In this document: in pieces, positions 1 through 14,097 of the stretch
Position numbering within the stretch: position 1 is the first letter of the stretch
How the letters are laid out: each line of letters begins with the position of its first letter
IMG/VR virus record: IMGVR_UViG_3300046785_000110
Coordinates: 1-21,316 of that record
DNA: 21,316 nucleotides
Reading direction: 5' to 3' (one strand)
Source of the DNA: a virus
Notes under the pieces: model-generated
What the model saw: the letters and a program-made list of their open reading frames with translations, nothing else
Databases searched by the model: none
What the model was told of the DNA's origin: nothing
Program-made: the position numbers and the translations under genes

Positions 1-33
1 AACTAGTTTACGGTTTTGGTTTTGGTTTTTCAT
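1..33 (-). CDS. Start of an unidentified small gene (partial, cut by window edge)
   Basis: An ATG at 33-31 on the minus strand opens a frame that reads MKNQNQNRKLV up to the window edge without a stop. It lies 47 bases downstream of the stop of the preceding 78-residue gene on the same strand, a normal spacing for this early-type cluster. The GGTTTTGG-type repeats visible on the plus strand at 12-29 are simply the Asn-Gln codons of this frame. No Shine-Dalgarno sequence is seen. Eleven residues are too few to assign a family, and the frame could be spurious. Confidence 0.4.
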   Translation of the reverse strand, partial: MKNQNQNRKLV

Positions 34-80
34 GTGTGTAAAAGTGCGGTTTTGGTCAGGTCCGCAAACTGGTTGAGGAT

Positions 81-317
81 TTAAGCTTTTCCGAGGAGAG
101 TAGGACGAACAACACCATCTTTGCCTGTGATGTCGCCAACGATGATAGTGTCACCGATGTCGAACTGTGGGTGCGAACGGCTGTTGTGCCAGAGAGTAGG
201 CATCGAGAAGAACTCACCGTCAATTTCGGCGACAGCTTCGACAGCGTAGGCAGTTGGTTCAGAAGCGTTACCGTTGATGGAGATAACGCGAGCGGATTTA
301 GTAGTTAGTTTTTGCAT
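81..317 (-). CDS. Small hypothetical protein, probably all-beta
   Basis: This 78-residue frame starts at ATG 317-315 after an AU-rich leader without a Shine-Dalgarno sequence. I do not recognise the family. The sequence alternates short hydrophobic strands (ARVISI, AYAVEAVAEI, EFFSMPTLW, DTIIVGDI) with polar turns, and a DIGDTIIVGDI segment recalls the end of small beta-barrel or OB-like proteins, so a compact beta fold is likely. That is an impression, not an identification. There are no cysteines, membrane segments or signal peptide. It is the third of at least four closely packed small minus-strand genes beyond the terminase and gene desert, the place where T7-like phages keep early host-takeover genes. 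Its codon use looks like that of its neighbours. Confidence 0.75.
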   Translation of the reverse strand: MQKLTTKSARVISINGNASEPTAYAVEAVAEIDGEFFSMPTLWHNSRSHPQFDIGDTIIVGDITGKDGVVRPTLLGKA

Positions 318-360
318 TTTGTATATGTATGTATTGGTTATTATTTATTACGAGAGAAAA

Positions 361-684
361 TTAGTCGTGTGAGTTGATGAACTGAGCAATTGTTTCGCAG
401 TGACAACGCCGTGGAGCGCAGTAGCACTCTAAGTAAACTGTTCCGTGTGCTTTGCCTAGCTTCCAGATAAGTCGCAGTTGTTTCATAAATTCGTTGTTTT
501 CTTTTGCTTGTAACTTTTGATTGAAGTATGTTTCGTAAACGTCACAAACTCTGTTGCGTTCTTTTTCTGAAGCATTTTGCATGACGTAAGGATTACCGAG
601 AGCGGAACCTCTGCCGCAGTATACGGTGTTTTGCTTAACGCGGGACAAGTTGTGAGTGTGTTTATTTATTATTTCGATATTCAT
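361..684 (-). CDS. DUF4326 family protein
   Basis: This 107-residue protein matches the DUF4326 pattern from memory. It has an N-terminal strand and basic segment (MNIEIINKHTHN), then VYCGRGSALGNPYVM at about residues 21-35 (the GRGSxLGNP signature), a helical middle with conserved-looking acidic and aromatic residues, and a Cys-rich end, LECYCAPRRCHCETIAQFI, at about 85-103. Cysteines at 87, 89, 94 and 96 could bind metal. The biochemical role of DUF4326 is not established as far as I know. It is common in phages and may act on a nucleotide-like ligand. The stop lies at 361 and the start at 684, 18 bases after the preceding gene. The leader has no Shine-Dalgarno sequence. Context suggests an early gene. 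Confidence 0.82.
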   Translation of the reverse strand: MNIEIINKHTHNLSRVKQNTVYCGRGSALGNPYVMQNASEKERNRVCDVYETYFNQKLQAKENNEFMKQLRLIWKLGKAHGTVYLECYCAPRRCHCETIAQFINSHD

Positions 685-702
685 GTTGTGTAGATAGCAA
701 AG

Positions 703-1173
703 TTATAGAGATTTCCAGAAGAGACGAGCGTCAGCAAGAGACATAACGCCATAGATAAGGAAGTCGTCGTCTTGAAGAAGTAGATTGACTTGGACAGTGC
801 CGTCTGCACGAACACGGAACTCATAGTCACCACGCTCGTATTTGCAGACAAGGTCAAGTTCTTCATCGATAGCGTCGAAAACTTTGAAGGCTTCGGTTTG
901 GTCAGAGAATGTTTTAAGTGCAGTGATACCTGTGTCGTCGTCACGGATAAGTTGGGAAGTGCCATCGCTCCAGTCGAGGAGAGCTAGCGGATTAGGCCAA
1001 GCTTTGTTGTGGCGTTGAGTAACGAAGGGACCACGAGAGCTTTCGCCTTGGATAGTGCCAGAGCCGTCACATTCGAAGCATACACCTTCGTCTACGTGTG
1101 AGTAATAAGGGAGAAAGCCGAGGCCGCCGCATACAGTGCAGACTTTGACGAGAGGTTGTTCAGTAATGTTCAT
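703..1173 (-). CDS. DnaJ-type zinc-finger protein, probable first early gene
   Basis: The frame is open from 1215, but I place the start at ATG 1173-1171, giving 156 residues beginning MNITEQPLVK. The upstream 14 codons (MVWGFILILYIIN) are AT-rich leader sequence and unlike the rest. Residues 12-38 contain CTVCGGLG and CFECDGSG, two CxxCxGxG motifs, i.e. one four-cysteine zinc site (Cys 12, 15, 32, 35) of the kind found in the DnaJ central domain. The remaining ~110 residues (acidic, mixed alpha/beta, ending ADARLFWKSL) match nothing I know. There is no J domain, so this is not a DnaJ chaperone. A role in protein or nucleic-acid binding is inference. It is the first gene after the ~975-base gap, the position of T7 early genes such as 0.3. 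Confidence 0.78.
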   Translation of the reverse strand: MNITEQPLVKVCTVCGGLGFLPYYSHVDEGVCFECDGSGTIQGESSRGPFVTQRHNKAWPNPLALLDWSDGTSQLIRDDDTGITALKTFSDQTEAFKVFDAIDEELDLVCKYERGDYEFRVRADGTVQVNLLLQDDDFLIYGVMSLADARLFWKSL

Positions 1174-1240
1174 AGTATTTATAATATATAGAATTAAGAT
1201 GAAGCCCCACACCATGCAGGACTCTGTGTTTTTTTATAAA

Positions 1241-1259
1241 AGGGGAGCTTGCGACCCCT
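1241..1259 (-). terminator. Weak hairpin followed by TTTT upstream of the early genes
   Basis: On the minus strand AGGGG (1259-1255) can pair with CCCCT (1245-1241), followed by TTTATAAAAAAA. The stem is only 5 bp with a 9-nt loop, so it could be an attenuator, a processing site or chance. It lies 68 bases before the start of the zinc-finger gene and so would sit in its leader transcript. Confidence 0.3.
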
Positions 1260-1323
1260 AAAAACACATAGTCCGACTGGAGGGACGGTAGTCCCACGCT
1301 GCACACGCTAAGCACCCTGAGCT

Positions 1324-1499
1324 GCACCCTTAGCTACCAGAGAGCGAGGAACGAGCGGAGAAAAAAATTTTTGAAAACACACTATTAAGCACCTTTGGCT
1401 ACCCAAGAGCGAGGAACGAGCGGAGAAAAATTTTTTAGAAGCATGGTGTGTCGCTGTGGTTACCCAAGAGCGAGGAACGAGCGGAGAAAAATTTTTTTT
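1324..1499. repeat. Three direct copies of a ~48 bp repeat with A-tract/T-tract ends
   Basis: Copies lie at about 1324-1372, 1389-1436 and 1454-1499. The core AGAGCGAGGAACGAGCGGAG is identical in all three (starting at 1341, 1406 and 1467; periods 65 and 61 bp) and is followed each time by 5-7 A and 5-8 T. The upstream part, of the form GCACCyTTrGCTACCm, is conserved in the first two and partly in the third. The core is not self-complementary, which argues for a protein-binding or DNA-bending site, not a hairpin. Periods near six helical turns and the A/T tracts suggest phased curvature. Possible roles are replication origin, packaging or terminal recognition, or early promoter control. None is proved. 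Confidence 0.85.
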
Positions 1500-1641
1500 G
1501 AGGGTGCCTGTGTGATAGTAGAGCGCAACTAGCGGTGAACTCGTGGTGAACTGAAGGCGGAAAAAAACCCATGCAAACAAAAACAGACGCGAACAAAGCA
1601 TTCGGCGTGCTCAAACGTGTCGCTTGGTTGAAAAGGCATGT

Positions 1642-1755
1642 GTTATGCGAATTGAACCCTTTGTTTTCAAGGGGCGGGACGTGATAGTTGCCAATTCGCT
1701 GACAATTTGAGCTTTCGAGGGGGGCTTGGGGGTAATTGTCAGCCGTTCACATAAC
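1642..1755. other. Nested inverted repeats (structured element)
   Basis: Three overlapping pairings are visible. GTTATGCGAA (1642-1651) faces TTCACATAAC (1746-1755), 9 of 10 matched. GCGAATTG (1647-1654) is a perfect inverted copy of CAATTCGC (1692-1699). GCTGACAATT (1698-1707) is a perfect 10-base inverted copy of AATTGTCAGC (1734-1743), around a G-rich loop. A small CCCTT/AAGGG hairpin (1657-1672) lies inside. The outer pair encloses the others, so the whole can be drawn as a branched structure, and the second and third pairings compete at 1698-1699. No tRNA fits. It sits just downstream of the late terminator on the minus strand, in the presumed genome-end region, so an origin, concatemer-processing or packaging signal is the best guess. 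Confidence 0.6.
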
Positions 1756-1797
1756 GAAAGGGTCTCAGATTTTCTCAACAAAACCTAGGGGTTCACA

Positions 1798-1839
1798 AAG
1801 AAAAGACCCCCAGAGGCAAACTAAGGCTCTCTGAGGGTC
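1798..1839 (-). terminator. Strong rho-independent terminator at the end of the late operon
   Basis: Read on the minus strand, GACCCTCAGAG (1839-1829) pairs with CTCTGGGGGTC (1815-1805) over 11 positions with one U-G wobble, around a 13-nt loop, followed by TTTTCTTT. The variable pair is a wobble on minus-strand RNA but a C-A mismatch on plus-strand RNA, and only the minus side has a T tract, so the direction is clear. It lies about 310 bases beyond the last late gene and would stop late transcripts before the early genes. Confidence 0.85.
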
Positions 1840-1869
1840 ACACACACACGTATAACACACATACACGTA
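1838..1869. other. Alternating purine-pyrimidine tract
   Basis: The plus strand runs as CACACACACACGTATA and then ACACACATACACGTA, almost unbroken alternating pyrimidine-purine, next to the terminator stem. Such tracts can adopt Z-DNA or be slippage-prone. No function can be read from it. Confidence 0.4.
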
Positions 1870-1942
1870 ACAAAACTTTATACTGGGTAGTCTGTGTCTT
1901 CTGTTGAACAGGTCAACAACAAAACACCTAAAATTTATAAGC

Positions 1943-1970
1943 TTGACAGGTATACTACCCCGACTACAAT
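1943..1970 (+). promoter_or_regulatory. Sigma70-like promoter pointing against all genes
   Basis: The plus strand has TTGACA (1943-1948), a 16-nt spacer and TACAAT (1965-1970), i.e. 6/6 and 5/6 of the bacterial consensus. A transcript would start near 1977 and run antisense to the small acidic gene and terminase. No plus-strand gene follows within the window, so if active it makes an untranslated or antisense RNA. With no experimental support, a chance match remains possible, although this is the best -35/-10 pair I found in the gap on either strand. Confidence 0.4.
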
Positions 1971-2022
1971 CGAGCCATAGGCGTAACACCTTAAGTATAC
2001 TAATAGTGAACGATGTCTCTGA

Positions 2023-2122
2023 CTATGGGTAAGATTACCATCAGACATAACCCATAGGAATAAGATTCTTAGTAGTTTAAGAGTTCACTCATTTCATTGT
2101 TCACTCTTAGTTACACTAAGAA
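2023..2122. repeat. Cluster of small inverted and direct repeats downstream of the last late gene
   Basis: CTATGGGT (2023-2030) is a perfect inverted copy of ACCCATAG (2050-2057). TCTTAGT (2105-2111) faces ACTAAGA (2115-2121) across a 3-nt loop. TTCTTAGT (2066-2073) is an equally good partner for ACTAAGAA (2115-2122), so two mutually exclusive hairpins exist. GTTCACTC is repeated at 2083-2090 and 2099-2106. A transcript from the plus-strand promoter at 1943-1970 would carry all of these. Alternatively they could structure the 3' end of late minus-strand mRNA. No T tract follows on either strand. Confidence 0.5.
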
Positions 2123-2149
2123 GGGGCTCCCTCTCTATATTTCCCCATA

Positions 2150-2401
2150 TTAGTCCCACTCCTGTTCGTCTTCATCCTCATCTTCCCAAACCCACTCTTC
2201 TTCAAGGTCTTCTAAACCTGCATTAAGATATTGTTCGTGGTAGGTGTTTGCTGATGAAAGTAGACCGTGAGCAGCAAAGGGGTCACTAAATAACACATCA
2301 AAGGATGTTGGGTTATCATAGTCCTGAACAACGACTACATAGTTCCTGTAGTGTTCGCCCAGAATGGCTCTTGCTTGTTCTATTGGGGTCATGGGTCTCA
2401 T
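2150..2401 (-). CDS. Small protein with very acidic C-terminal tail
   Basis: This 83-residue protein starts at ATG 2401-2399, overlapping the terminase stop as ATGA, so translation is probably coupled. Residues 1-60 look like a small alpha/beta domain (a helix after MTPIEQARAILGEHY, a strand YVVVVQDYD, then FDVLFSDPFAAHGLL). Residues 64-83 are almost a polyanion, 14 of 20 being Asp or Glu, with three Trp. I believe similar small genes follow terminase in other marine T7-like phages but cannot name a family. The acidic tail could contact basic packaging or capsid proteins or imitate DNA. Both ideas are inference. It is the last gene of the late operon. Confidence 0.8.
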   Translation of the reverse strand: MRPMTPIEQARAILGEHYRNYVVVVQDYDNPTSFDVLFSDPFAAHGLLSSANTYHEQYLNAGLEDLEEEWVWEDEDEDEQEWD

Positions 2402-4059
2402 ATCCAGCTCTCGGCACTATTTGACCCCCTAGAACGCTTGTAATAGGCATCTGTGAAGGCTTGTAGTTCCTTGTTGAGTAGTTCTGCTTTTCTGTTGGCT
2501 ATATTGTCCTCTGCATCTTGAGCCATCTGTTCGGTCCAGTAGTTCACAGCGATACTAAGGGCATCTAGGCGGTCATCATGTGTTATTGCACCCCTGTCTC
2601 TGGTTATACGGGACATCTGGTACATCAGTTGGTATCTGAGCTGTAGCTCTGGGGGATACCCTTGGGCTGTCTCAAAGTCCTTTTTGATGACCTCTGGGGA
2701 TATAATGAGCCTGTGTTGGTTCATTATGGGCTCAAGGGTGTCAATGATACGTCGTTCCTTCTGGATGTTGTGTCTGACCTCCTCCATAGTACACGGGTGT
2801 ACCTTGGTGAGCACTGGCTTAAAGATTTCGTTGAACATACCGTCACCAAAGTTACTTTCTACAACAATGGCGTTGACCTGATGGTTCTTAGCAATCATTG
2901 CGAGTGTCTTCAGGGTCTCCTCACTGTATCCCCCTTGTAGACCCCCAGCGTCAGGGACGAACAACATTCCGTTAAGCATTTTGACCACAGCGTAGCCTGT
3001 TTCGTCCTTACCGCGACCACTGGGGTCAATCGCAAGAACACTCCCTGTGAACGGTATGTGCTCTCCAACAGCCTTAAAGGGGCGGTAGTATCTGTCTCCG
3101 CTGAAGCCCACATTGGGGACACTCCCGTCCCACACTAGGTCAGGAGCTTGAGCCCACACGAGTTTCTCTGGGGCTATATCGTTGTCGATGTCTGCTACAA
3201 TCAGGTCGTTGAGCTTTAATGGGTGTCTGTCGGTGTCACTCAGGCGTGTATCCAGCATGAACTGCATGGCGAACCCAGAGCGACCATAGGACAGCTCTCG
3301 TTCTAACAGGTCAATATCTGAGAACCGAGTAGGCTCTGTAGCCTTACCTACCTTCTCAGAATCCACACAGATGCCCTTAACAGCCCCGTTATAGCCCTTT
3401 TCGTTCGTCTGAGGGGCAACATACTTAGCAGGCCATATACGGGCTTTATAGCCCCGTTCTTGTAGCTTGTTGTAGATACTGTCCTCAGTCTGGGGTGTTC
3501 CAAGAAATATAATCTTAGAGGACTCCTCGGGCTTCAGGATAGCATCAAACTCTTTTACTTGTTCGCTAAGCTTCTCACGCATAGCCTGCGTAGCAGAGTT
3601 GTTCGCTACCTCGATGTCATCGGCAATGATGATGTCCGCACGGGACCCTGTTAATTGTGAAGTTACACCTAAAGATTTCACAGACGGGGCGTGCGACGCA
3701 GGAGCAGGACCTACATCAAAAGATATTTTTGAGAAGCGTTGCTTATCGTTGGGCTTCAGGTGAGCCAGAAAGGGAACCTCGTGGATAAGACGCAAGGTGA
3801 ACGTGCTGAAGTCATCAGAACGAGTCTTGGACGCCGAGACCACTAGGAAATTTAACGAGGGATTCAGGAACAACTGGTGAACTACATAAGCCGAACAAAT
3901 CCACGACTTACCAACACCACGGAACGCCTCAATAATGACACGTTTATCCTCACCTTGCATAAAGTCTGCAATGTTATACTGGATGGGTGTTGGCTCTGGA
4001 AGGTTTAGGTGCTTCCAAATCAGGAACAAAAAGTTCCTAAAGTCTTTGAGTTCTTCCAT
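2398..4059 (-). CDS. terL: Terminase large subunit (T7 gp19-like DNA packaging ATPase/nuclease)
   Basis: This 553-residue protein is of normal length for the T7 gp19 family. It docks on the portal, pumps DNA with its N-terminal ATPase and cuts concatemers with its C-terminal RNase H-fold nuclease. Visible motifs: Walker A FRGVGKS at 46-52; Walker B IIIADDIE at 143-150 with Asp147/Asp148; motif III FLGTPQTED at 185-192; nuclease acidic residues in AIDPSGRGKDETG (Asp345), VVESNFGDG (Glu401) and THDDRLDAL (Asp495, Asp496, Asp499). The start lies two bases after the HNH gene and the stop overlaps the next start by ATGA. No Shine-Dalgarno sequence is seen, so translation is likely coupled to upstream genes. 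The domain set is intact, with nothing missing. Confidence 0.97.
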   Translation of the reverse strand: MEELKDFRNFLFLIWKHLNLPEPTPIQYNIADFMQGEDKRVIIEAFRGVGKSWICSAYVVHQLFLNPSLNFLVVSASKTRSDDFSTFTLRLIHEVPFLAHLKPNDKQRFSKISFDVGPAPASHAPSVKSLGVTSQLTGSRADIIIADDIEVANNSATQAMREKLSEQVKEFDAILKPEESSKIIFLGTPQTEDSIYNKLQERGYKARIWPAKYVAPQTNEKGYNGAVKGICVDSEKVGKATEPTRFSDIDLLERELSYGRSGFAMQFMLDTRLSDTDRHPLKLNDLIVADIDNDIAPEKLVWAQAPDLVWDGSVPNVGFSGDRYYRPFKAVGEHIPFTGSVLAIDPSGRGKDETGYAVVKMLNGMLFVPDAGGLQGGYSEETLKTLAMIAKNHQVNAIVVESNFGDGMFNEIFKPVLTKVHPCTMEEVRHNIQKERRIIDTLEPIMNQHRLIISPEVIKKDFETAQGYPPELQLRYQLMYQMSRITRDRGAITHDDRLDALSIAVNYWTEQMAQDAEDNIANRKAELLNKELQAFTDAYYKRSRGSNSAESWI

Positions 4060-4061
4060 GT

Positions 4062-4286
4062 TTACTTGTTGCGAGCTCGGTTCTGCGATTTACTCTGGAT
4101 ACGCAAGTTACCACGGGAGTTATTGTGGGGATTACGGTCCCTGTGGTCAACATCTTTACCCGCTAGAGCAGCTTTGCCGTGTTTCTTGACGGCTAACCGT
4201 CGAGCTTTGTTCCTAGAAGAGCGTCTCGCTCGTTGCTCAGGTTTGGAGTGGTAGTTTGCGTATTCTTTTTTATAATTTCTGGCCAT
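4062..4286 (-). CDS. Small HNH-type protein between the terminase genes
   Basis: This 74-residue, very basic protein has the pattern VDHRDRNPHNNSRGNLRI followed by QSKSQNRARN at about residues 46-73. This is the DH-x-D-x-N-x3-5-N-L-R core and trailing Gln-Asn-Arg of small phage HNH endonucleases (His48, Asn60). No zinc-binding cysteines are present. The start overlaps the small-terminase gene by 17 bases and the stop is two bases before large terminase, so it belongs to the packaging operon. In other tailed phages, HNH proteins next to terminase are needed for cleavage during packaging (established for HK97-type systems). A similar role here is inference. A homing-endonuclease origin is possible but it is not free-standing. 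T7 has its Rz/Rz1 lysis genes at this location. Confidence 0.8.
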   Translation of the reverse strand: MARNYKKEYANYHSKPEQRARRSSRNKARRLAVKKHGKAALAGKDVDHRDRNPHNNSRGNLRIQSKSQNRARNK

Positions 4287-4512
4287 TTGCTGCTATTACT
4301 ATATGTTCTGAGTCGTCTTGGAAGGGAAGCATGTCTACTAGGTTACCCAACGGGTTTTCGTTGGTCACCTGAGCGTGGATGCCATTGTCTTTAAGGAGTT
4401 GTCGGGCGGCATTTAGGTCACTAGGTGACGCTTCGCCACTCTGGATACGCTGGATGAACTCACTGATTAAAAGGTCTTGAAGGCTGTAGAGCTTTTCTGT
4501 TTTATCACTCAT
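4270..4512 (-). CDS. terS: Terminase small subunit (T7 gp18-like)
   Basis: This 80-residue protein resembles T7 gp18 (DNA maturase A) in size, position and sequence style. An N-terminal helix YSLQDLLISEFIQRIQSGEAS is followed by PSDLNAARQLLKDNGI, the compact SDLNAARQxLKDNxI segment typical of this family, and then a C-terminal region with PLGNLVDMLPF. It recognises concatemer DNA and activates the large subunit. It starts two bases after the holin-like gene. An AAGGAG lies 14 bases upstream of the ATG, inside the end of the holin gene, further away than usual. The end overlaps the HNH start by 17 bases. Confidence 0.9.
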   Translation of the reverse strand: MSDKTEKLYSLQDLLISEFIQRIQSGEASPSDLNAARQLLKDNGIHAQVTNENPLGNLVDMLPFQDDSEHIVIAANGQKL

Positions 4513-4514
4513 TA

Positions 4515-4673
4515 TTACTTTGTAATCTCCTTGTAGATTTTGATGCCCAGATAGAACATCGTTAAGACACCTACGCCTATAGCTACGGTAGTGTTAATAT
4601 GGTCTAGGGTTAGGGTTCCGAGGATTCCACTGGTGGCTATAAACGGGGTCACGTAAGGGTTTTCAGGTATCAT
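4515..4673 (-). CDS. Holin-like small membrane protein
   Basis: A 52-residue frame from ATG 4673-4671 to TAA 4517-4515 begins MIPENPYVTP and ends KIYKEITK. It has a moderately hydrophobic stretch at about 9-23 (TPFIATSGILGTLTL) and a clear membrane segment at about 28-44 (TTVAIGVGVLTMFYLGI), with a lysine-rich tail. Its place between tail fibre and small terminase is that of the T7 class II holin gp17.5 (67 residues), which permeabilises the membrane at the end of infection. The sequence itself is not conserved enough for me to prove homology, so the call rests on size, topology and synteny. No Shine-Dalgarno sequence precedes the ATG. The gap to the fibre gene is 32 bases. Confidence 0.72.
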   Translation of the reverse strand: MIPENPYVTPFIATSGILGTLTLDHINTTVAIGVGVLTMFYLGIKIYKEITK

Positions 4674-4705
4674 TTTGGGTTAAGGTATTGAGGAGGTTAA
4701 TTATA

Positions 4706-5449
4706 TTATGCGAAAGCGCGGAAGACTAGCTTCCAGTTGGAATTGGTTATGGTAGAGCCGTAAACACCAGTTGTTTTATTGTACAGGGTAACGGATGCGT
4801 TGCCACGGACACTAACATCGGTTGATGTTCTGTAAGCATTAGCAATCCCTAGATTCACTTCATCTCCTACAGCGTATCCATGCTCTGCCGTCTTACATCG
4901 CAAACAAACCGAATATAGCTTCGGAACAGCTCCCAATCCATGTGTAACTGTTACGAATCCGTCTGAGCTTGGTATAGCAATTTCAGAGCTCTCAAAGGAC
5001 GCCGTAAGAGCCACTGTAGATGTAACACCCTCAACACCGTCAGCTCCATCATTACCAGCAACTCCTTGGATACCTTGGATACCTTGAGGGCCTTGTGGGC
5101 CGATACCTGCGATGTTTGTAGAAGCTCCCTCAGAAACCTCTTGAGCCACAAACAGACCTTGTTGGTAAGCTGTGTCGAGGTCACTCTCAGACAACCGTGA
5201 GCCGTTCTGGAAGTCCACTAGCTGTGTAGCGGATGTGTTACGCCATACACGTATCTTTTGGTAGGCACTGGGTGCTCCGTCGAGTTTTACTGTTTTTGCT
5301 ACTGCGTCACGCTCAGAGACTGTTAGGTCGCTCCAAGTTGTTCCGTCATAGCCCTTCACGTTAACGTCATCAATCGATAACACGTTAAAGGGAACGCTGT
5401 AGGTGGTTTCTGATAGGTTCTGATTATATTCAATGTAGCTGTTAGCCAT
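4706..5449 (-). CDS. Short tail fibre protein with T7 gp17-type N-terminus and collagen-like stalk
   Basis: The 247-residue protein begins with the phage_T7_tail anchor: about residues 1-110 (SYIEYNQNLSETTYSVPF, then VKGYDGTTWSDLT, IRVWRNTSATQLVDFQNGSRLSESDLDTAYQQGLFVAQEV in two parts). T7 fibres use this part to bind the tail. Residues 117-141 are eight Gly-X-Y triplets (GPQGPQGIQGIQG and on), a collagen-like trimer stalk. The last ~100 residues are beta-rich (VTHGLGAVPKLYSVCLRCK, then AYRTSTDVSVRG) and probably form a small C-terminal knob. T7 gp17 is 553 residues, so this is a minimal fibre, either itself receptor-binding or an adaptor for a second fibre encoded outside the window. It starts 12 bases after the gp16 analogue. 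Confidence 0.88.
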   Translation of the reverse strand: MANSYIEYNQNLSETTYSVPFNVLSIDDVNVKGYDGTTWSDLTVSERDAVAKTVKLDGAPSAYQKIRVWRNTSATQLVDFQNGSRLSESDLDTAYQQGLFVAQEVSEGASTNIAGIGPQGPQGIQGIQGVAGNDGADGVEGVTSTVALTASFESSEIAIPSSDGFVTVTHGLGAVPKLYSVCLRCKTAEHGYAVGDEVNLGIANAYRTSTDVSVRGNASVTLYNKTTGVYGSTITNSNWKLVFRAFA

Positions 5450-5461
5450 AATTAGAGGGGG

Positions 5462-8400
5462 TTATTGGATTAAACGGTATTGTTGTTTTTCTTGAGTTAG
5501 TTGAGTGAGCGACTGTTGTAACTCTGGAAACTCCTCAAGCATCTCTTGACGAGCTTGCTTACGGAAACGTCTGAGCCAGTTATTAACTGCACGAATACGA
5601 GGAGACTTCTCTCCAATCGAACGGTCACTCTCAGGCGACAGAGCTTGATACTCCTTGCTCTTGATTAGGCGTGCCAGAGTTTGACGAAGGGTCTTTCCAC
5701 CAATCTTTGTGGTTGAAGTCTTTTCAAGCCACACGTCATACGCTTGGCGTCCATCGTCGTTGTAGATGTCCTTAGTTTGAAGAGTTCCACCAATCTTACT
5801 ATTCTGCTTGTTAAACCCGTGAGCAAGACTTCCTAACTCTTGGTCTACCATATTGTCACTTTCAGTGCTGAAGTAGATGGGGTTAAGGATGCCAGCACCC
5901 ATTGGAAGATTCTCATACTTGACGGCTTCACCAAGGAAGTTTCGTTTCTTAGGTAGAATACCAGACGCAGGAGACTTCTTGAGCATATAGTCAAAGACTG
6001 TGCGTGTCTCACGGATTACCCGTTCGTCACTGTAGTTTTGTCCTTGAGAGAACAATGTTGGAACAAATCCACCAGCAATGTTCCCTGCTAGTGCCTTTGA
6101 GTTAGCCGCAGGGTCACGAAGCATATTCAGCATCGAGTCCAAACCTTTAACGTAAGACTTGTTAGTAACATTGTTACTGAAGGATAGAGCTACCGCTGAG
6201 AACATATTGCCCATCGCAGTGTCATCTAGGTCATAGTATTCCTCTGCTTCCACTAGGTCAGCAAAGAGACCAATCACAGTAGCCATAGGGTCTACACGTT
6301 GGTAGCTAACATACTTATTACCAATCTTGAACGAGTAAGGTTGCCACCCTGTTAATTGTAGGGCTTCCTTTTCCTCTTGTGTTCGTGGACCACCGCCTGT
6401 GATGAACTCCTTGTTTGAAAGAGTGTACCACATACCAACGGCAACCGCAGATGCACCTGTAGCAAGACGTCCCGCTGTTTGTGCGCGTACCATTGGGTCT
6501 TCATTCTTTAGACCTTCAGTAAGCTTCTTACGGCGATAGATTAAGTCTGCTCCCATACCTAAAGGTGTACGGTCGAGTGCGAACTTCAAGATGTTTGTTG
6601 GGGTGTTAATGAACGGAACAACAAAGTTTAGCATTGGTATCTTTGTCTTCAGCTTACCAAGACTTTCACCAAGAATACCAACAACAGAGTCTTGAGCTAG
6701 GTCGTTGGTAAAGGTATTTACTTTAGCATACTCTAACGCCGCATCCGCAATACCACCTCGTGAGGGGTCATAAGGTTGACGAGCCAGCTCAGCTTGAATA
6801 ACCGCTCTTTGCTCCCCACCATACTCAAGTCCGTTCAGGGTCTTAGATGTTTCTACAGCATCCAAGTAGACGTTAGCTTCATTGTAAGCACGGCCACCCT
6901 TGGTAACGTAGTTGTTAAACCTCTCATGGACGAACTCAGCGAGCTCCTTGCCATCAGTTTTACCTGATTGAAGTCCTTCTAAGGCGAGGTTAGTGCGAAC
7001 ATACATACGGTAGTTGAGTTGCTTAAAGAACTCATCCACAGTCATAAGACCGCGGCTTGGTAGTCGCACGCCTGTTCCGAGTGCATCCACAGCTTTTTCA
7101 ATGGAGTCACGCTGTCCTTCGGGAAGGCTCTTACCCTTTTCGTTGAACATCTTAGAGACGTTCTGTCCTGTGATGGCATCAGACGGTTTATTAGCATCGT
7201 TGAAAGCTACGGAACCTTTAGTCAGCACGGCGTCTTGAGTGTCCCAAGCTTTACGGGCAAAGGTAGCGGCTTCTCTAAAGTTCTCCATCTTAAAGGCAAA
7301 CCCAAGGAGTGCTCTTGCAATGTCTGGGTCTCCTTGAAGAAGCCCTCCAAAAGCCAGCTCTCCCATCCGTAGCGCGGTGGTTAACCCACTACCAAGGGTA
7401 TTAACGACCTGAGTTGCAGGACCAGAGAGCAAGGAGTTCATCCAATACTCAGTGACCATGTTCATCATTCGGCCACCTTTCATCTCACTGGTGAGACCTC
7501 CAACAGCTTTCATTCTAGCGTTAGCGGCGTCATCTGCCCCTGTCGCGTTGATAGCTCGTGCTACGTCCTCGTCACTACCAGCCATAATAAGCTTGTTGAT
7601 GACGTCTTGGACATCCATCGTTCCTGTGGTTTCCGTAGTGTACTTAGCGTAGTCTGAGGGGTCACGAGCAATAAAGTCAAAGCCCACGTCTTTGTTCAGA
7701 CGGTATCCACCTTTGGAACCATCAAGGAACTTACGTTGAACCAAGGACAGACCTGCTTCTTTACCCATTAACGACCAGATGCGTTGAACTTCGGTAAGTT
7801 GGTCAACACCTGAGATAACCCTTGCCTCTAGTTCCGCTAGGTTCTTTGTTGGGTCTTTGCGAGCGGCACTTGCTTCCTTTGCTAGGTCAACAAGGTCACG
7901 GCTCATAATGTCAATTAGGGTTTTAGCGGCACGCTGTTGTGTCCTGAAGTCAGCTAGGCTTGTTCCACCAGCGGCTTTAAGACGCTCTACTGCGCCTAAC
8001 CAAGTGTTTTCGTTGCCTCCTAGAAGGTCAACCATCTCTTTGGTTTCAGCGGCGAGTGACTCAGCGGTTACCTTCTCTCCCTTAACGCCTGTAGTATTGA
8101 GGTGCTCAGCAATAGCCGAGATAACACCAACAGCACCACGGCTGGAATTGATGTTTCGAGCGGCACTCAGAATAGCCTTTTCGCCACCTGTAGTGAGTTG
8201 TTTTGCAAGACGGGTGATTGCCGCGGCTACTTCTTGGTCAACGGCTGCGTCGGCTTGTCCGAAGGTTTTTGCATCGTCCCTACGTATCGTCTTACTAGCT
8301 TGAAACGAGTGGGGGTTTTTAAGAACATGTTCATCAGACTTTCTCCCATCCTTGATGATGGTGTTGTCCATGCTTGTTTGTTTACCTGCCCCATCTGTTT

Positions 8401-11239
8401 CAGTAGTATAAGGATTTGTATCACCCTCATCACGGAACTGGTCAGGAACCTCCTTTCTCTTAACCATCGGCGACGTCTTGTCTAAGAAACGGTTACCAAC
8501 ATACTCCTTAAAGCTCTCTACACGTTGATTAGCTAAACCTCCCTCCTTGTTACGGCGGTATCTACGATAGGCTTCCTGAAGGGTAGGATTGATTACTGTG
8601 CCTTTAAGAGGATTGACCTCTGCATTCACAAGAGTGTTTGGTGCGTCTTTGGCAGGCTGTGCTGTTTTTAGACTTTCGATTTTACTTTCTAAGTAAGCGA
8701 AGGTTTTAGGAGCTTTTTGGGGTAAGGCCGCTAAACCTGTTCCAAGGCCATCTTTGGGTATAACAATCGTCGCATCAGCGGGTAATTTAGCAAAGGCTTT
8801 GTCTATCGCGGCTTTATTAGATGCGAGTTCATCATCTGTAAAATAAGCAGAATCGTCTCTTCTTGGAGCCTTTTTCGTTGGAATTCCTATTGCATTAGGC
8901 TCGTCACGAACAACAGCTTGGCCCCCTTTTCCTCTTCCTTCAAGATTATCTCCAAATAAGTAGAATTTATCTGGGTTCTCTCTTAATAGTTCTGGAGAAA
9001 TTCTGTCTACTGTTTCAATAGTTTTTTGCGCTTGGTTACCTTTAGACGCAAGGATGAACTCATTCTCAGCTTTAATTTCCTTGGGGGTCTTTCCACCCAT
9101 AGCCTTCTCGATGTTAGCCAGACGCTTTTCACCTGTTGCTATATTCTTCTCAACCTCTTTAATCTTCGCCTCTAGCTTCTGACGTTTGTCAGGGCTGATG
9201 TCCTTTGGATTCTTAGGGTCAGCAAGGTCAGACGAAGGTGTGTTCTCTAGTTGCTTTTTGTAAGTCTCTAGGATTGCCTTCAGTCCCTTTTTAGGTTGGT
9301 TAATAGAGCGTTCTAGCTGTTCGTATTCGGTAATACGCTTGAGCTTATCAGCAGCAACCTGTCTTTGCTTGTTGGTATATTTGGTCTCACGCTCCTTGTT
9401 AAATTCATATAGTTCCTCTCCGTTCTCTTTGCGGTCTAGGAGCTCACGGTCTATCTTCTCTTTCATGTAAGGTTTAACGCTGTCCCACTCTAAGGCTTTC
9501 TTGAGATACTCGGAGGGAACTTCGGATACTCTCTTGCCTCTCCATTGCTTACCACCGAAGTTGAGTTTCCAGTCTTCACGGACATATGTTTCCTTCAGAA
9601 GGTCATCCGACTGCATCTCGCTTATTCTTTCGATGACTTCGCCATCTTCATTAAGAGCTTCACCCTTTTCATTACGAATTTCTAATCCGTCTTCATCAAG
9701 AGCTGTAGTGAAGTCCGACCCACGGTCATCTAGTGTACGGTGGTTTTGTCCGTGTAGCTGGTCAACGTCTTTAAGGAAGGCAAATTTCTCGTCGAACATA
9801 CGGTTCTGCTGAGATACAATGTCGCCTGTGTATTTGAAGACGTCATCCAACAGGGAACCATCAGTAGCTTGTAGTCCTAACAGACCTTTAACAGCCATTA
9901 GAAGTTCATCAAAGACAGACTTCTTAGGCATGTCACCTTCCATCGCACTAAGAACCAAACGGAACTCTTCATTAGAGAAGGCTTCTGAGACAAACTCAGC
10001 AAGGTTAGTGAAAGCGTAAGGCGTATCTGAAGCACGTGTGGCTGACCCGTGTACTTGGTCAACTCCTGCAACACCATTGGAACCAAAGACCTTCTCGTCC
10101 ATGCCTAGTTTTTCAATAGCCTTTAGGTATGTGCGAGCTAATCCAGACGTAGCCGTGTTACCCTGAGAAGCCTTCAACATCATTTCTTTGAACGCGGCGG
10201 GGCTCTCTGCTACGTGCTGAATGTCTACGTTGAGTTTATGAAGCGTTGTTGCGTGCATCAGCTCGTGAGCCAATGTACGAACGCCTCCTTCTCCCATTGT
10301 AATCAGTCCAGACGCTTGTCCTGTTGCGTTGTCTACAGAGGACTTGAAGGTGGATAAACGGTCACCACTAAAGTTCACCATAGTGGTCTTTAGGCTTTCT
10401 GGTGCGTTAGAAAGTAAAGCTTTAAACAGAGGAGCAAGCTCCCCATCGTAGCCCTGCGAGAAGCCCTGTAGGAGTTCAAAAGCATTTGTGGGCTCACCTG
10501 TTACATCACGACCCATAGCCTTCGATAAGGTAGCTCGGAAGGTCTGTGTGCTGTCAAAGTCTTCTTGGAGAAGCTTAGCATCCCTCTGACCAGAGAAAAC
10601 TGCACTTTGATACTCTTCAAGGACTGCCCTTGGGTCATCTCCATTACGTGCCTTCTTGATTGCTCTTACGCCAGCAATAAGTCCGTCTACAACACCACCA
10701 AGAGCCAAGCCCTCAAGGGTGTTCTTTAGTCGTCCTTCAATCTCTCCGTCGTCTGCATCTGCGGCAAGGTATTCGGATATAGGGTTGTTGAGTGACGGAA
10801 AGGTTTCGATAAGGTTACTGAGGCGTTCTTCTTGTGCTTGGAACATTGAGAAGTCAGCAATGGCCCCTGCCGCCATGTTACCCTTTACGTTTAGCCTGCG
10901 AACTCCACGGGCTCCTTTAAGACCCTTGGCTGCTGTGCTGAGCTTACCTACTTTACTAAGCTGTCCTGCGACAGGAATGAAGCCTGTCATAAATTGACTA
11001 ACACCTTCAACCATACCACCCGCAAAGGTCTTAGAGCGACCAAGGAAACGAGTGTCATAATCAGGCAGGAGGTCGTCGCCTGTAGCGAAGTCAGCAAGGT
11101 CATAGAGACTTTGAACTGCTCCTTCTACACCACGGAAGGGAGCCGCCAATATGTCCGTAAACATATTAGCATCTTCTTGTGGATTAGGGGTGTTTTGGGT
11201 GCTACGAGGAGTAGCGTTAAGGAAGTCGTCTATTGCCAT
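5462..11239 (-). CDS. Giant internal virion/ejection protein (T7 gp16 position) with polyvalent-protein domains
   Basis: 1925 residues, against 1318 in T7 gp16. By position it is the last internal core protein, expected to be ejected and help form the DNA channel across the envelope. T7 gp16 starts with a lytic transglycosylase domain; I see none here. Instead: residues 325-334 HELMHATTLH, a zincin HExxH, with NLAEFVSEAFSNEEF (411-425) offering the third ligand Glu; 559-605 a DUF3820-like stretch (FGGKQWRGKRVSEVPSEYL); 610-735 charged, probably coiled coil; 745-860 a domain with FYLFGDNLEGRGKGGQAVV and PKDGLGTGLAALP, of the DUF7831 kind; 1260-1790 an LPD38-like region (NSLLSGPATQVVNTLGSGL, VPFINTPTNILKFALDRTPL). 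These are typical of phage polyvalent proteins. Family names are from memory. The start is two bases after the gp15 stop. Confidence 0.85.
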   Translation of the reverse strand: MAIDDFLNATPRSTQNTPNPQEDANMFTDILAAPFRGVEGAVQSLYDLADFATGDDLLPDYDTRFLGRSKTFAGGMVEGVSQFMTGFIPVAGQLSKVGKLSTAAKGLKGARGVRRLNVKGNMAAGAIADFSMFQAQEERLSNLIETFPSLNNPISEYLAADADDGEIEGRLKNTLEGLALGGVVDGLIAGVRAIKKARNGDDPRAVLEEYQSAVFSGQRDAKLLQEDFDSTQTFRATLSKAMGRDVTGEPTNAFELLQGFSQGYDGELAPLFKALLSNAPESLKTTMVNFSGDRLSTFKSSVDNATGQASGLITMGEGGVRTLAHELMHATTLHKLNVDIQHVAESPAAFKEMMLKASQGNTATSGLARTYLKAIEKLGMDEKVFGSNGVAGVDQVHGSATRASDTPYAFTNLAEFVSEAFSNEEFRLVLSAMEGDMPKKSVFDELLMAVKGLLGLQATDGSLLDDVFKYTGDIVSQQNRMFDEKFAFLKDVDQLHGQNHRTLDDRGSDFTTALDEDGLEIRNEKGEALNEDGEVIERISEMQSDDLLKETYVREDWKLNFGGKQWRGKRVSEVPSEYLKKALEWDSVKPYMKEKIDRELLDRKENGEELYEFNKERETKYTNKQRQVAADKLKRITEYEQLERSINQPKKGLKAILETYKKQLENTPSSDLADPKNPKDISPDKRQKLEAKIKEVEKNIATGEKRLANIEKAMGGKTPKEIKAENEFILASKGNQAQKTIETVDRISPELLRENPDKFYLFGDNLEGRGKGGQAVVRDEPNAIGIPTKKAPRRDDSAYFTDDELASNKAAIDKAFAKLPADATIVIPKDGLGTGLAALPQKAPKTFAYLESKIESLKTAQPAKDAPNTLVNAEVNPLKGTVINPTLQEAYRRYRRNKEGGLANQRVESFKEYVGNRFLDKTSPMVKRKEVPDQFRDEGDTNPYTTETDGAGKQTSMDNTIIKDGRKSDEHVLKNPHSFQASKTIRRDDAKTFGQADAAVDQEVAAAITRLAKQLTTGGEKAILSAARNINSSRGAVGVISAIAEHLNTTGVKGEKVTAESLAAETKEMVDLLGGNENTWLGAVERLKAAGGTSLADFRTQQRAAKTLIDIMSRDLVDLAKEASAARKDPTKNLAELEARVISGVDQLTEVQRIWSLMGKEAGLSLVQRKFLDGSKGGYRLNKDVGFDFIARDPSDYAKYTTETTGTMDVQDVINKLIMAGSDEDVARAINATGADDAANARMKAVGGLTSEMKGGRMMNMVTEYWMNSLLSGPATQVVNTLGSGLTTALRMGELAFGGLLQGDPDIARALLGFAFKMENFREAATFARKAWDTQDAVLTKGSVAFNDANKPSDAITGQNVSKMFNEKGKSLPEGQRDSIEKAVDALGTGVRLPSRGLMTVDEFFKQLNYRMYVRTNLALEGLQSGKTDGKELAEFVHERFNNYVTKGGRAYNEANVYLDAVETSKTLNGLEYGGEQRAVIQAELARQPYDPSRGGIADAALEYAKVNTFTNDLAQDSVVGILGESLGKLKTKIPMLNFVVPFINTPTNILKFALDRTPLGMGADLIYRRKKLTEGLKNEDPMVRAQTAGRLATGASAVAVGMWYTLSNKEFITGGGPRTQEEKEALQLTGWQPYSFKIGNKYVSYQRVDPMATVIGLFADLVEAEEYYDLDDTAMGNMFSAVALSFSNNVTNKSYVKGLDSMLNMLRDPAANSKALAGNIAGGFVPTLFSQGQNYSDERVIRETRTVFDYMLKKSPASGILPKKRNFLGEAVKYENLPMGAGILNPIYFSTESDNMVDQELGSLAHGFNKQNSKIGGTLQTKDIYNDDGRQAYDVWLEKTSTTKIGGKTLRQTLARLIKSKEYQALSPESDRSIGEKSPRIRAVNNWLRRFRKQARQEMLEEFPELQQSLTQLTQEKQQYRLIQ

Positions 11240-11241
11240 AA

Positions 11242-13539
11242 TTATAATTTAATGTAGCCGTTTGTTGTTAGGTAAAGGTTTTGGAACGTCATAAGCTGTT
11301 GGACGCTCATTTCGTATTTTTCTGCAATTTTATTAAGGGTTCCACGGTGCTGAGGGTTAACATTTTCAAGGGTCATTCCTCCATCTTTCCAAGCTTGGAC
11401 AGCCGTCACAGTGTTTTTGATGTTACCACCAATTGTTATAGGAATTTGTGTGAAGTCTATAAAATTGAACTTCATCATAAAATCCATAGAGACCCTGCCT
11501 GTTTGACTATATCCACCCCCTATACTGAATCCCCCTTCAATTATTTTTTCCGCAGGAACTCCTCCAATTTTCATTAGGTTAGCGAGTTGCTGTGCTTTAA
11601 CTAACTGGACCTCTAAAGAGGGTTTAACGGTCTTGGTCACACCACGGTAGGTACGTGTCACAGGAACCATACCTATAAGTAGTTTATCTGCTTCTGAGGG
11701 CATCACGGACGATACGCTTGCTCCTCCCAATCGACGGGTTTTATTCGTCCAGAGGTCTTCATGAATAACCTCAAAGGAGGCAAAGGCATCCTCCTCACTC
11801 AGTGTCCCCATCTTTACGAGCCGCGCAAAGTTTTCTACCCGTTTCTCTGGCGTATGCCCAGCAGGAACTAGCCGCCCTTCGACGGTTTCAGAGGTTGCCC
11901 TGTCGGTTGCATCTGCCGCCAGCGCCTCAGCCTCAGCCTTAATAACCGCAGGAGCATTCTCTCCTACCAAGGCTTTTATTTCAGCAACACGCTCAGGACC
12001 GACCGCAGCTTCATTCTGTTTTGCCTCTAACGCTTGGGCGTCTATAGCAACAGCAGAAGAAGAATTAAGAGTTTTATCCAGCCAAGCCTCTATGCGGGGA
12101 ACAGTTACATCCTTTTCACCTTCTTTAAAGGCAAGCCGACGTTCCTCTGGGTCCGTAATGTCTGTAACGGACGCTAACAAATCAGCATACGCCCTGTCCT
12201 TCTCTAGCATGTATTGTCTTTGAAACTCTTGCCCAGCCTCATTAAGTTCCTTCACATTTCCGTTTACTCCAGTTCTAATGGTAAACATCGACTCTGGTAT
12301 TCGGGCTTCTGCACGGTTATCTAACAAGTCCGCTGAGTTGTTATGGACACTTATATAGCTCGCCCCTTGTTCCTGATTGAATAACTGGGGGTTAGCTTTT
12401 GCTTGGTTGATACCAATGATTAGTAAATCTCGTGTGTAAGAGTTCTCAACTAGGTTCCCCTCATACATTTTATTTTCATTCAGCTCTTTCTCGGTAGCCT
12501 CCAGAAAGGCTAGGGTATCGGACTCCGTAGTTTGTCCATAGGCATCAGCTAGAATAGAGGCCGACAGCGTGGTCGCTTCTTTTTTACCTGCCTCAATGTT
12601 TCTTAAACGGCTTCTTTCTAATTGAGCGTCTAACTCCACAAGTTTAGCCTGACGTGCTGGCGTAGCAAACAGCTCTTGGCCTGCAACCAAACTGTCCTCG
12701 CCTTTGCCGTCGTTGATGGTATCAAGAAAAGCTTCAGCAAGGTCATGGTCGTCGGAGTTTTTGCTGTTGATGAGCCCTCCGATATGAGTAACCGTTGAAG
12801 CGTAGACTGCCTCCGCCGTCGCCCGTGAACCTAGCGTGCCTTCTTGAGTGTTGAAGACGTCGGTAGCAGTAGTAAAGAATGACTCCATGTTCTCTTCGCT
12901 TATAGCCGCAAAGTTACGAGCCATCGACTCCATAGCCATCGTCTTATTGCGCTCTGGGAGCTCACGACTAAACTTGGCAACCTCATTGCTTATGAAGCTA
13001 GCACGGGTAGCAGACTTTAGAGCGTTGTTGGCTTGCTCACCAAATACATTACCGCCGAGGAGTTGGTCAGCTTCTTCATAAACAGAACCTATTCGTTCCT
13101 CCAGAGCTGTCTCAAAGGAGGCGACGTCTTTGTAGTCGTAGTAACTCTTAAACATCTCGTTAGACAACGCTTGGAGCTTTGTGGGTATCTCTGTGGCGTA
13201 ATACTTCTCAGATAACTTACGGTTGTAAGCCTTGGTGTACCCGAACAAACTCTTGGCTTCTGGGTCGAGCCCTTCCTGTATAAACTTATCATACTCAGCG
13301 TCCGACATGTTATCGGCGTCAATTTCCCCTTGTTTTGTAGCGATGCCTACGGCTTGACCGTATAAACCAACGCCTTGCTTTAACGCATTGCTCAACTGCA
13401 TCGCTGAGTTCGTTAGCGGGGTCTGTTGCACGGCTACACGGTAGTTGCCCCCAGCGCGTACTGTGGGTCTTAGGGCTACTGGGTTCAGGTTAAGTTCTAC
13501 CTGCTTGCGTCCGTCGTTTTGAGTTTGTCTAGATGCCAT
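11242..13539 (-). CDS. Internal virion protein, T7 gp15-like
   Basis: This 765-residue protein is close in length to T7 gp15 (747) and occupies its position, between gp14- and gp16-like genes. In T7, gp15 forms part of the inner core and, after ejection, of the periplasmic tunnel. It is largely helical and charged, without membrane segments or signal peptide. The first ~45 residues (ELNLNPVALRPTVRAGGNYR) look like an extended arm. The middle is long amphipathic helices. The end, ITIGGNIKNTVTAVQAWKDGGMT to LMTFQNLYLTTNGYIKL, is a small helical domain. I recognise the gene by synteny and overall character, not by a diagnostic motif. It starts three bases after the gp14 stop and ends two bases before the gp16 start, so translation is probably coupled. 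Confidence 0.85.
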   Translation of the reverse strand: MASRQTQNDGRKQVELNLNPVALRPTVRAGGNYRVAVQQTPLTNSAMQLSNALKQGVGLYGQAVGIATKQGEIDADNMSDAEYDKFIQEGLDPEAKSLFGYTKAYNRKLSEKYYATEIPTKLQALSNEMFKSYYDYKDVASFETALEERIGSVYEEADQLLGGNVFGEQANNALKSATRASFISNEVAKFSRELPERNKTMAMESMARNFAAISEENMESFFTTATDVFNTQEGTLGSRATAEAVYASTVTHIGGLINSKNSDDHDLAEAFLDTINDGKGEDSLVAGQELFATPARQAKLVELDAQLERSRLRNIEAGKKEATTLSASILADAYGQTTESDTLAFLEATEKELNENKMYEGNLVENSYTRDLLIIGINQAKANPQLFNQEQGASYISVHNNSADLLDNRAEARIPESMFTIRTGVNGNVKELNEAGQEFQRQYMLEKDRAYADLLASVTDITDPEERRLAFKEGEKDVTVPRIEAWLDKTLNSSSAVAIDAQALEAKQNEAAVGPERVAEIKALVGENAPAVIKAEAEALAADATDRATSETVEGRLVPAGHTPEKRVENFARLVKMGTLSEEDAFASFEVIHEDLWTNKTRRLGGASVSSVMPSEADKLLIGMVPVTRTYRGVTKTVKPSLEVQLVKAQQLANLMKIGGVPAEKIIEGGFSIGGGYSQTGRVSMDFMMKFNFIDFTQIPITIGGNIKNTVTAVQAWKDGGMTLENVNPQHRGTLNKIAEKYEMSVQQLMTFQNLYLTTNGYIKL

Positions 13540-13542
13540 TTG

Positions 13543-14097
13543 TTATGAGAATTGTTTGTTTATAGCGTCGTTAAGTCCAGAGTCCGAACCGAACGAGTAA
13601 GCACTCATACCTGTTTGGGCTCCATCAAGAACAGCACCAAGGTAGTTTGGTTGTGCTATTGGTTTGTTAATAGAAAGAAGGTTCATACGTGACTGCATCG
13701 CTCCATCTTGGAACGCTAGGTCACGGTTGATTGCTTGGAACTGCTGTTGCTGTTGAACAGAGAAACTATATTCAGCTTCCTTACGTGTCATATCATTAAG
13801 AAGAGCATCAACACTCAATCCCGCTACTCCAGCCTCCCCAGCACTCACACGTCCTGTTGCACGTGCTTCACGGGCTTTCTTGGTGGACTCTTGGATAGCT
13901 TGTGCCGCTGATGTCATCTCTTGGCGTTCCCGTAGGCGTGACGCTGACATCTCTTGTAGGTGACGCTGTTGCTCCGCTAGAGAGGCATTCTTTTGCATCT
14001 TCTCTTGGGTCTTGGCTTGCTGCTGTTGCCCAATGATGGACATACCCGCTTGGGCTGCGCCAAGGGCTACTGATGCGATTATTGCTGGAGGACACAT
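13543..14097 (-). CDS. Internal virion protein, T7 gp14-like
   Basis: This 184-residue protein (T7 gp14 is 196) begins MCPPAIIASVALGAAQAG, much like the MC-start and Ala/Ile-rich beginning of T7 gp14. It continues with a long Gln-rich helix (QQQQAKTQEKMQKNASLAEQ) and a second one with RKEAEYSFSVQQQQQFQAINR. T7 gp14 inserts in the outer membrane during ejection, and the hydrophobic N-terminus fits that role. It lies one base after the gp13-like stop and three before the gp15-like start. No Shine-Dalgarno sequence is seen; the leader is AAATAAT. Confidence 0.88.
   Translation of the reverse strand: MCPPAIIASVALGAAQAGMSIIGQQQQAKTQEKMQKNASLAEQQRHLQEMSASRLRERQEMTSAAQAIQESTKKAREARATGRVSAGEAGVAGLSVDALLNDMTRKEAEYSFSVQQQQQFQAINRDLAFQDGAMQSRMNLLSINKPIAQPNYLGAVLDGAQTGMSAYSFGSDSGLNDAINKQFS

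Follow-up and report, generated by a model that had tools for sequence, protein, structure and literature searches.

Gene order at the locus

The window, by which we mean the whole 21,316-base stretch of DNA analysed here, is the record of an uncultured virus whose minus strand carries genes in T7 order: capsid, gp11, gp12, gp13, gp14, a gp15-slot gene, the gene for a 1925-aa protein, a gp17-type fibre and the large terminase (TerL).

19607-20629, minus strand: major capsid protein
17756-19534, minus strand: gp11-type tail tubular protein, 592 aa
14562-17756, minus strand: gp12-type nozzle, 1064 aa
14099 upwards, minus strand: gp13-type protein
13543..14097, minus strand: gp14-type internal virion protein (PF24072, E 4.6e-27)
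11242..13539, minus strand: gp15-slot internal virion protein, 765 aa
5462..11239, minus strand: gp16-slot internal virion (ejection) protein, 1925 aa (open-reading frame, phrog_6651 and T7 gene order)
4706-5449, minus strand: start of the gp17-type fibre
2398-4059, minus strand: T7-type large terminase (TerL)

The preliminary description of this DNA had put the 1925-aa open-reading frame in the slot of the T7 ejection protein gp16. The frame is real and lies on the minus strand, and the slot is confirmed by synteny and by a match to phrog_6651 ('internal virion protein', E 1.1e-51). The protein is matched by 173 phage records, many of them annotated 'internal virion protein D', and it is this homology, together with the gene slot, that makes it a member of the gp16 type. 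In T7 the ejection protein is stored in the core of the capsid and leaves together with the first DNA; going by the slot and by what is known of the family, the 1925-aa protein would likewise be injected with the phage DNA. Among the ejection proteins of this uncultured T7-like podophage it may be the largest, an identification which forms part of a wider explanation that we hold, as a whole, at about an even chance.

Other regions of the window showed peculiarities of their own. The gp11-type gene (17756-19534, minus strand) is interrupted by a large repeat-rich insertion, an 84-base tandem repeat is found at 18762-18979, and the gp12-type nozzle, at 1064 aa, compares with open frames of 899-937 aa in relatives L002-L006, which suggests an insertion in its N-terminal half. 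Downstream of the terminase, where coding is poor, a 61-base tandem repeat (2.8 copies) occupies 1324-1498. A free-standing DUF4326 protein of 107 aa is encoded at 361-684 on the minus strand (PF14216, E 1.8e-15); domains related to it have been inserted into the gp16-slot proteins of L035 and L039.

Architecture of the 1925-aa protein

Within the gene the following parts were distinguished, all on the minus strand.

10550..11239: N block, residues 1-230 (homology of residues ~44-230)
9830..10549: zincin-like metallopeptidase domain, residues ~231-470 (alignment, AlphaFold, PDB-profile, Foldseek and hhalign)
10253..10267: HELMH, residues 325-329, two predicted zinc ligands and predicted catalytic Glu326 (alignment)
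9977..10006: NLAEFVSEAF, residues 412-421, with E415 (9995-9997) as predicted third zinc ligand
8594..9049: exchangeable module, residues ~731-882 (unrelated DNA in L002, blastn)
8687..9007: DUF7831 domain, residues 745-851 (Pfam PF25176, E 2.8e-35; model pLDDT 86.5)
5465..7522: C block, residues 1240-1925, the gp16-family C-terminal region, including a PFxxTPxNI motif (1542-1560)

In cultured T7-like phages of Pelagibacter, Roseobacter and Desulfovibrio, homology to the protein is limited to the N block (~44-230) and the C block (~1180-1910), and a motif scan of their proteins found no HExxH. Around 950 residues, including the zincin, sit between the two blocks in the window lineage. The protein may be pictured as a gp16-type scaffold, with the zincin (231-470) placed between the N block (1-230) and the C block (~1204-1925) and followed by a variable region which holds the DUF7831 module.

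A C-terminal segment had been described as LPD38-like, a reading that we abandon. The sequence PFINTPTNILKFALDRTPL, found at residue 1542 of the 1925-aa protein, belongs to the gp16-family C block, throughout which the PFxxTPxN motif is kept. The LPD38 model PF18857 gave no match to the protein at E 1 and two hhalign comparisons returned probabilities <1%, while the same library recovers LPD38 at 4.3e-44 in the zincin protein of Vibrio phage 1.205.O (L027).

A probable zincin whose catalytic residues are all in place

The sequence HELMHATTLH occupies residues 325-334, and HELMH is the sole HExxH of the 1925-aa protein, which contains 12 His in its entire length; NLAEFVSEAFSNEEF begins at residue 412, the numbering of E415 and E419 is thus correct. 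Homologues were gathered from viral contigs and annotated phages, and HExxH was intact in all zincin-bearing homologues collected. In a domain alignment of 16 sequences (23-80% identical to the window domain) the only invariant columns are T322, H325, E326, H329, T332, E415, F416 and L430. The HExxH...E motif proposed as a zinc site in the gp16-slot protein thus holds, with H325, E326, H329 and E415 invariant in all 16. The original proposal had left the third ligand between Glu415 and Glu419, and here the alignment decides: E419 is variable, reading DEFLVAAF in L040, L042 and L043, and was rejected, so that E415 is the better candidate. By analogy of sequence, H325, H329 and E415 would bind zinc, with E326 in catalysis.

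The motif is short, which on its own would allow it to be a chance occurrence in a helical protein. Such an occurrence is expected only 0.0055 times from the composition, the motif is invariant in all homologues, and independent profiles match the domain to known zincin-bearing proteins; we regard this reading as refuted. The domain diverges faster than the blocks that flank it (dN/dS of ~0.17, against 0.10-0.12 in the N and C blocks, window vs. L003/L004), yet its catalytic residues are fixed.

The Pfam MPTase-PolyVal model reached E 0.059 at best, in three of five members and under the cut-off; it is one published model of this kind and does not define the fold, and the homology is drawn instead from matches to PHROG and PDB profiles and from comparison of profile with profile. 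Among solved ejection proteins in the PDB, the domain profile matched 9sfn chain G (1337 aa, 1.4e-7), 23sg gp10 (1.2e-5) and PhiM1 gp48 (8vb2, 7.3e-5); N4-type virion RNA polymerases followed (2.4e-4, others weaker). Among the 16 domain members, 14 matched phrog_2206 'virion RNA polymerase' (best 3.8e-15), and hhalign aligned the window family with the phiKMV-type gp37 family at 98.7% probability (E 2.5e-16).

An AlphaFold model of residues 1-512, built on eight sequences, had a mean pLDDT of 55, rising to ~75-90 over most of 231-470. It places a helix at 280-284, a three-stranded sheet (286-290, 297-302, 309-315) ahead of the HExxH helix (320-339), which contains H325, E326 and H329, and a second, C-terminal helix at 413-422 which contains E415, the predicted third ligand. 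This succession of a helix, three strands, the HExxH helix and then the Glu helix matches the metallopeptidase core given for polyvalent proteins in Iyer et al. 2017 (PMC5512222). Foldseek of the model against the PDB returned nothing significant (best E 0.37, with ACE, MATCAP and M3/M32 peptidases among the highest-placed entries), as half of the model is of low confidence. Against predicted viral structures it matched a Bordetella phage internal protein D, an ART-PolyVal-like protein and a phiKMV-like internal core protein at a probability of 1.00, and a virion RNA polymerase at 0.90. Residues 231-470 are thus very probably a zincin.

Search for a transglycosylase

The T7 transglycosylase had been thought missing from the first 280 residues, and by sequence (Pfam, PDB-profile) this stands; the AlphaFold model of residues 1-230, which is of low confidence, is too poor to decide on an SLT fold. 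Pfam, NCBIfam and PDB-profile searches detected no transglycosylase in the gp16-slot protein, including an N-terminal SLT domain of the T7 gp16 kind, in the N block or in the gp15-slot family; the NCBIfam search gave no matches, and neither lysozyme nor SLT was detected in the gp15-slot protein (10 homologues). The SLT profile PF01464 found nothing in 14 whole records, among them phiKMV with its annotated gp36 lysozyme, which indicates that divergent lysozymes can escape it.

These results bear on the possibility that the zincin, working in the periplasm on envelope proteins or on the peptides of peptidoglycan, stands in for the T7 transglycosylase, as SLT or lysozyme went undetected in the gp14-, gp15- and gp16-slot proteins of the window or tested relatives. 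However, phiKMV has both enzymes, the zincin of gp37 and an annotated lysozyme domain in gp36, which makes cleavage of peptidoglycan less likely; the SLT profile is negative in phiKMV too and hence misses divergent lysozymes, and in pelagiphage gp16 neither SLT nor zincin was detected. We consider this replacement improbable.

DUF7831 and exchangeable modules

The preliminary description overlooked DUF7831 (745-851), a domain that is exchanged between relatives close to identical otherwise. PF25176 scores 121 bits against a cut-off of 27, and a GDN...GGQA...RDEPNAIGI motif is conserved in the alignment of this domain. In blastn comparison, the genes of L002 and the window share 99.4% identity across nt 1-2192 and 99.3% across nt 2980-5778, whilst L002 lacks a counterpart to nt 2193-2647 of the window gene (residues ~731-882) and carries other DNA there. 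Neither DUF7831 nor the L002-type replacement was found in L003-L006. The domain recurs elsewhere in relatives, at 916-1055 in L013 and at 547-668, directly behind the zincin, in L014. It is also found in many other phages (e.g. Caulobacter phiCbK), in short open-reading frames (L019-L022) and within other proteins of >2000 aa (L016-L018, L023).

Other gp16-slot proteins carry other modules. L035 and L039 have DUF4326-like domains (E about 1e-3, below the curated cut-off), L033 a DprA/SLOG-like domain (E 1.8e-14), L014 a weak nucleoside-deoxyribosyltransferase match and L040 an ART-PolyVal domain (E 8.6e-11). The last is among inserts which in L040-L042 separate the N block from the zincin (seen in a comparison of L040 7249-10083 with L041-L043), showing that cargo can be added ahead of the zincin as well as behind it.

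Further modules were noted in passing. In the L016 protein (1-6741, >2240 aa) a weak NADAR match comes after DUF7831, the variable region of L032 holds a phrog_9995 module (9691-11373, E 2.9e-29), and a recurrent VGDMSGVDSQFIDWLDELGADYTIYHTGDRPRIG module of the variable region, listed with L013, L035 and L039, is possibly SLOG-like.

The cargo modules look like nucleotide- or ADP-ribose-handling domains, and DUF4326, SLOG, NADAR and ART belong to an NAD/ADP-ribose conflict network (PMC9503650). To add DUF7831 to this network on the company it keeps would be guesswork. A search of the literature outside subscription papers and bioRxiv did not find DUF7831, and as a relative of DUF4326 it was rejected (hhalign probability 0.2%); as a macro domain it was rejected too, Foldseek of its model giving weak matches of dual-specificity phosphatase (DUSP) type instead (E 0.017). 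The weak fold match and the lack of profile similarity to DUF4326 count against the cargo idea.

The protein had also been called polyvalent, and this part of the description survives without LPD38: it is multidomain, with exchangeable enzyme-like modules, and the predicted zincin and DUF7831, together with the DprA/SLOG-like, ART and DUF4326-like modules of relatives, amount to several unlike, putatively enzymatic domains within a single virion-associated polypeptide.

Proposed role of the zincin

Building on the gene slot, the exchange of modules and the homologous zincin with its intact catalytic set, we infer zinc binding, catalysis, timing, substrate and cargo function as follows. Going by T7, the 1925-aa protein would wait in the core of the capsid and be expelled along with the first DNA. 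On reaching the envelope or cytoplasm, its zincin, with His325, His329 and Glu415 binding zinc and Glu326 serving as general base, could cut ejection proteins in cis or in trans, thereby remodelling the ejectosome. Where a cargo module is present, cleavage by the zincin may free it, and a freed domain handling nucleotides or ADP-ribose would suit the countering of the host's immune signals as infection begins. We put the processing of ejected proteins after entry at slightly under even, and the even chance stated above applies to scaffold, zincin, ejectosome processing and cargo jointly.

The zincin is kept without a recognisable cargo domain in L002-L006, L030, L037 and phiKMV gp37, which implies that release of cargo is not its only job; nor is it a universal ejectosome-processing enzyme, as T7 and pelagiphages eject without it. 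Against a processing role counts that the N4 virion RNA polymerase, which has a homologous domain, is packaged unprocessed (PMC5512222).

Retention without recognisable cargo would equally suit an injected effector whose early substrate is a host protein, for example one involved in defence or regulation. This is the main rival, and it agrees with the patchy spread of the domain (present in the window clade, phiKMV-type, PhiM1 and N4-type proteins, absent in the pelagiphages tested) and with its evolving faster than the structural blocks around fixed catalytic residues; such a role is allowed by PMC5512222. Conservation over phages of very different hosts, however, is a better fit to a phage-protein substrate, and we think a host target unlikely, albeit a stronger contender than the other rivals. 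A former peptidase retained for folding or packing would accord with the N4 region that contains the metallopeptidase domain being needed for encapsidation (PMC5512222), but a structural remnant would not need a catalytic Glu and three ligands which are invariant in very diverged homologues, and it is about as improbable as peptidoglycan cleavage.

Returning to the processing of ejected proteins, a broader and rather doubtful version would make the zincin a general catalytic component of the ejectosome in podophages of non-T7 type (the phiKMV, PhiM1, N4 and window lineages), acting post-ejection, with the window-lineage protein additionally a carrier of swappable cargo, ADP-ribose or nucleotide counter-defence domains which the zincin would release. 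The intact homologous zincin of phiKMV-type gp37, PhiM1 gp48 and N4-type virion RNA polymerases, as well as the window clade, makes an enzymatic role testable in cultured phages. The near-identical window and L002 pair, differing by one module, shows that an ejection protein tolerates the exchange of a whole domain and can hence serve as a delivery scaffold. The pair also connects T7-like phages with a predicted counter-defence by way of ADP-ribose or nucleotides as the phage enters.

Comparison with known systems

T7 gp16 shares slot and gene order with the window protein but has an N-terminal lytic transglycosylase (PMC8954989); none was detected in the window protein, which carries a zincin instead. 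The internal virion protein D of Pelagibacter and Roseobacter phages (HTVC119P, CRP-227) has homologous N and C blocks (25-40% identity), but is shorter (1210-1303 aa) and has neither HExxH nor DUF7831. Polyvalent proteins (Iyer et al. 2017, PMC5512222) likewise combine the metallopeptidase with other enzyme-like modules in a very large virion-associated protein, for example in Vibrio phage 1.205.O, which has a related zincin together with a true LPD38; in the window the scaffold is instead a gp16-type ejection protein in which LPD38 was not found, and the text of PMC5512222 does not mention gp16, T7-like or phiKMV proteins.

Judging from these searches the zincin domain is not peculiar to one phage, it is also found in phiKMV/LUZ19 gp37-type proteins, PhiM1 gp48 and N4-type virion RNA polymerases. 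The phiNV3 gp38 protein bears the same HExxH...E signature, and tblastn with its domain returned 147 records, among them phiKMV gp37, LUZ19 gp37 and N4-type polymerases; the signature is intact in phiKMV gp37, LIMElight gp47, Paidla, Xanthomonas F5 and the Presley virion RNA polymerase. In Paidla (vB_PpuP-Paidla), which infects P. putida KT2440, the motif reads HEITH and lies at 512 of the internal virion protein. In the N4-type (Schitoviridae) polymerases the MPTase/C1 domain is similarly an HExxH zincin in a giant ejected protein, but fused to an RNA polymerase and in another phage family. A preprint on the N4 enzyme (PMC12633501) places C1 at 2124-2375 and remarks on its HExxH, and within the literature searched (again without subscription papers or bioRxiv) only this preprint joined 'ejection proteins' and 'zincin'. 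The gp48 of Pectobacterium phage PhiM1 (8vb2), a tetrameric, solved ejectosome component, has LHEAAH and THEF in the aligned region and differs in length (1263 aa); the PhiM1 ejectosome paper (PMC11440229) and a 2022 review of ejection proteins (PMC8954989) mention no peptidase. The sequence aligned from 9sfn is nearly identical to phiKMV gp37 and, like it, 1337 aa long, 9sfn is therefore probably from a phiKMV-like phage. Besides its length, phiKMV gp37 differs from the window protein in that the phiKMV record has no DUF7831 and a lysozyme is annotated in the adjacent gp36; the homology demonstrated between the two is that of the zincin, the N and C blocks lying outside it. Both phiKMV and LUZ19 gp37 nevertheless occupy the gp16 position and carry the homologous zincin with HEAVH and NVKEL intact.
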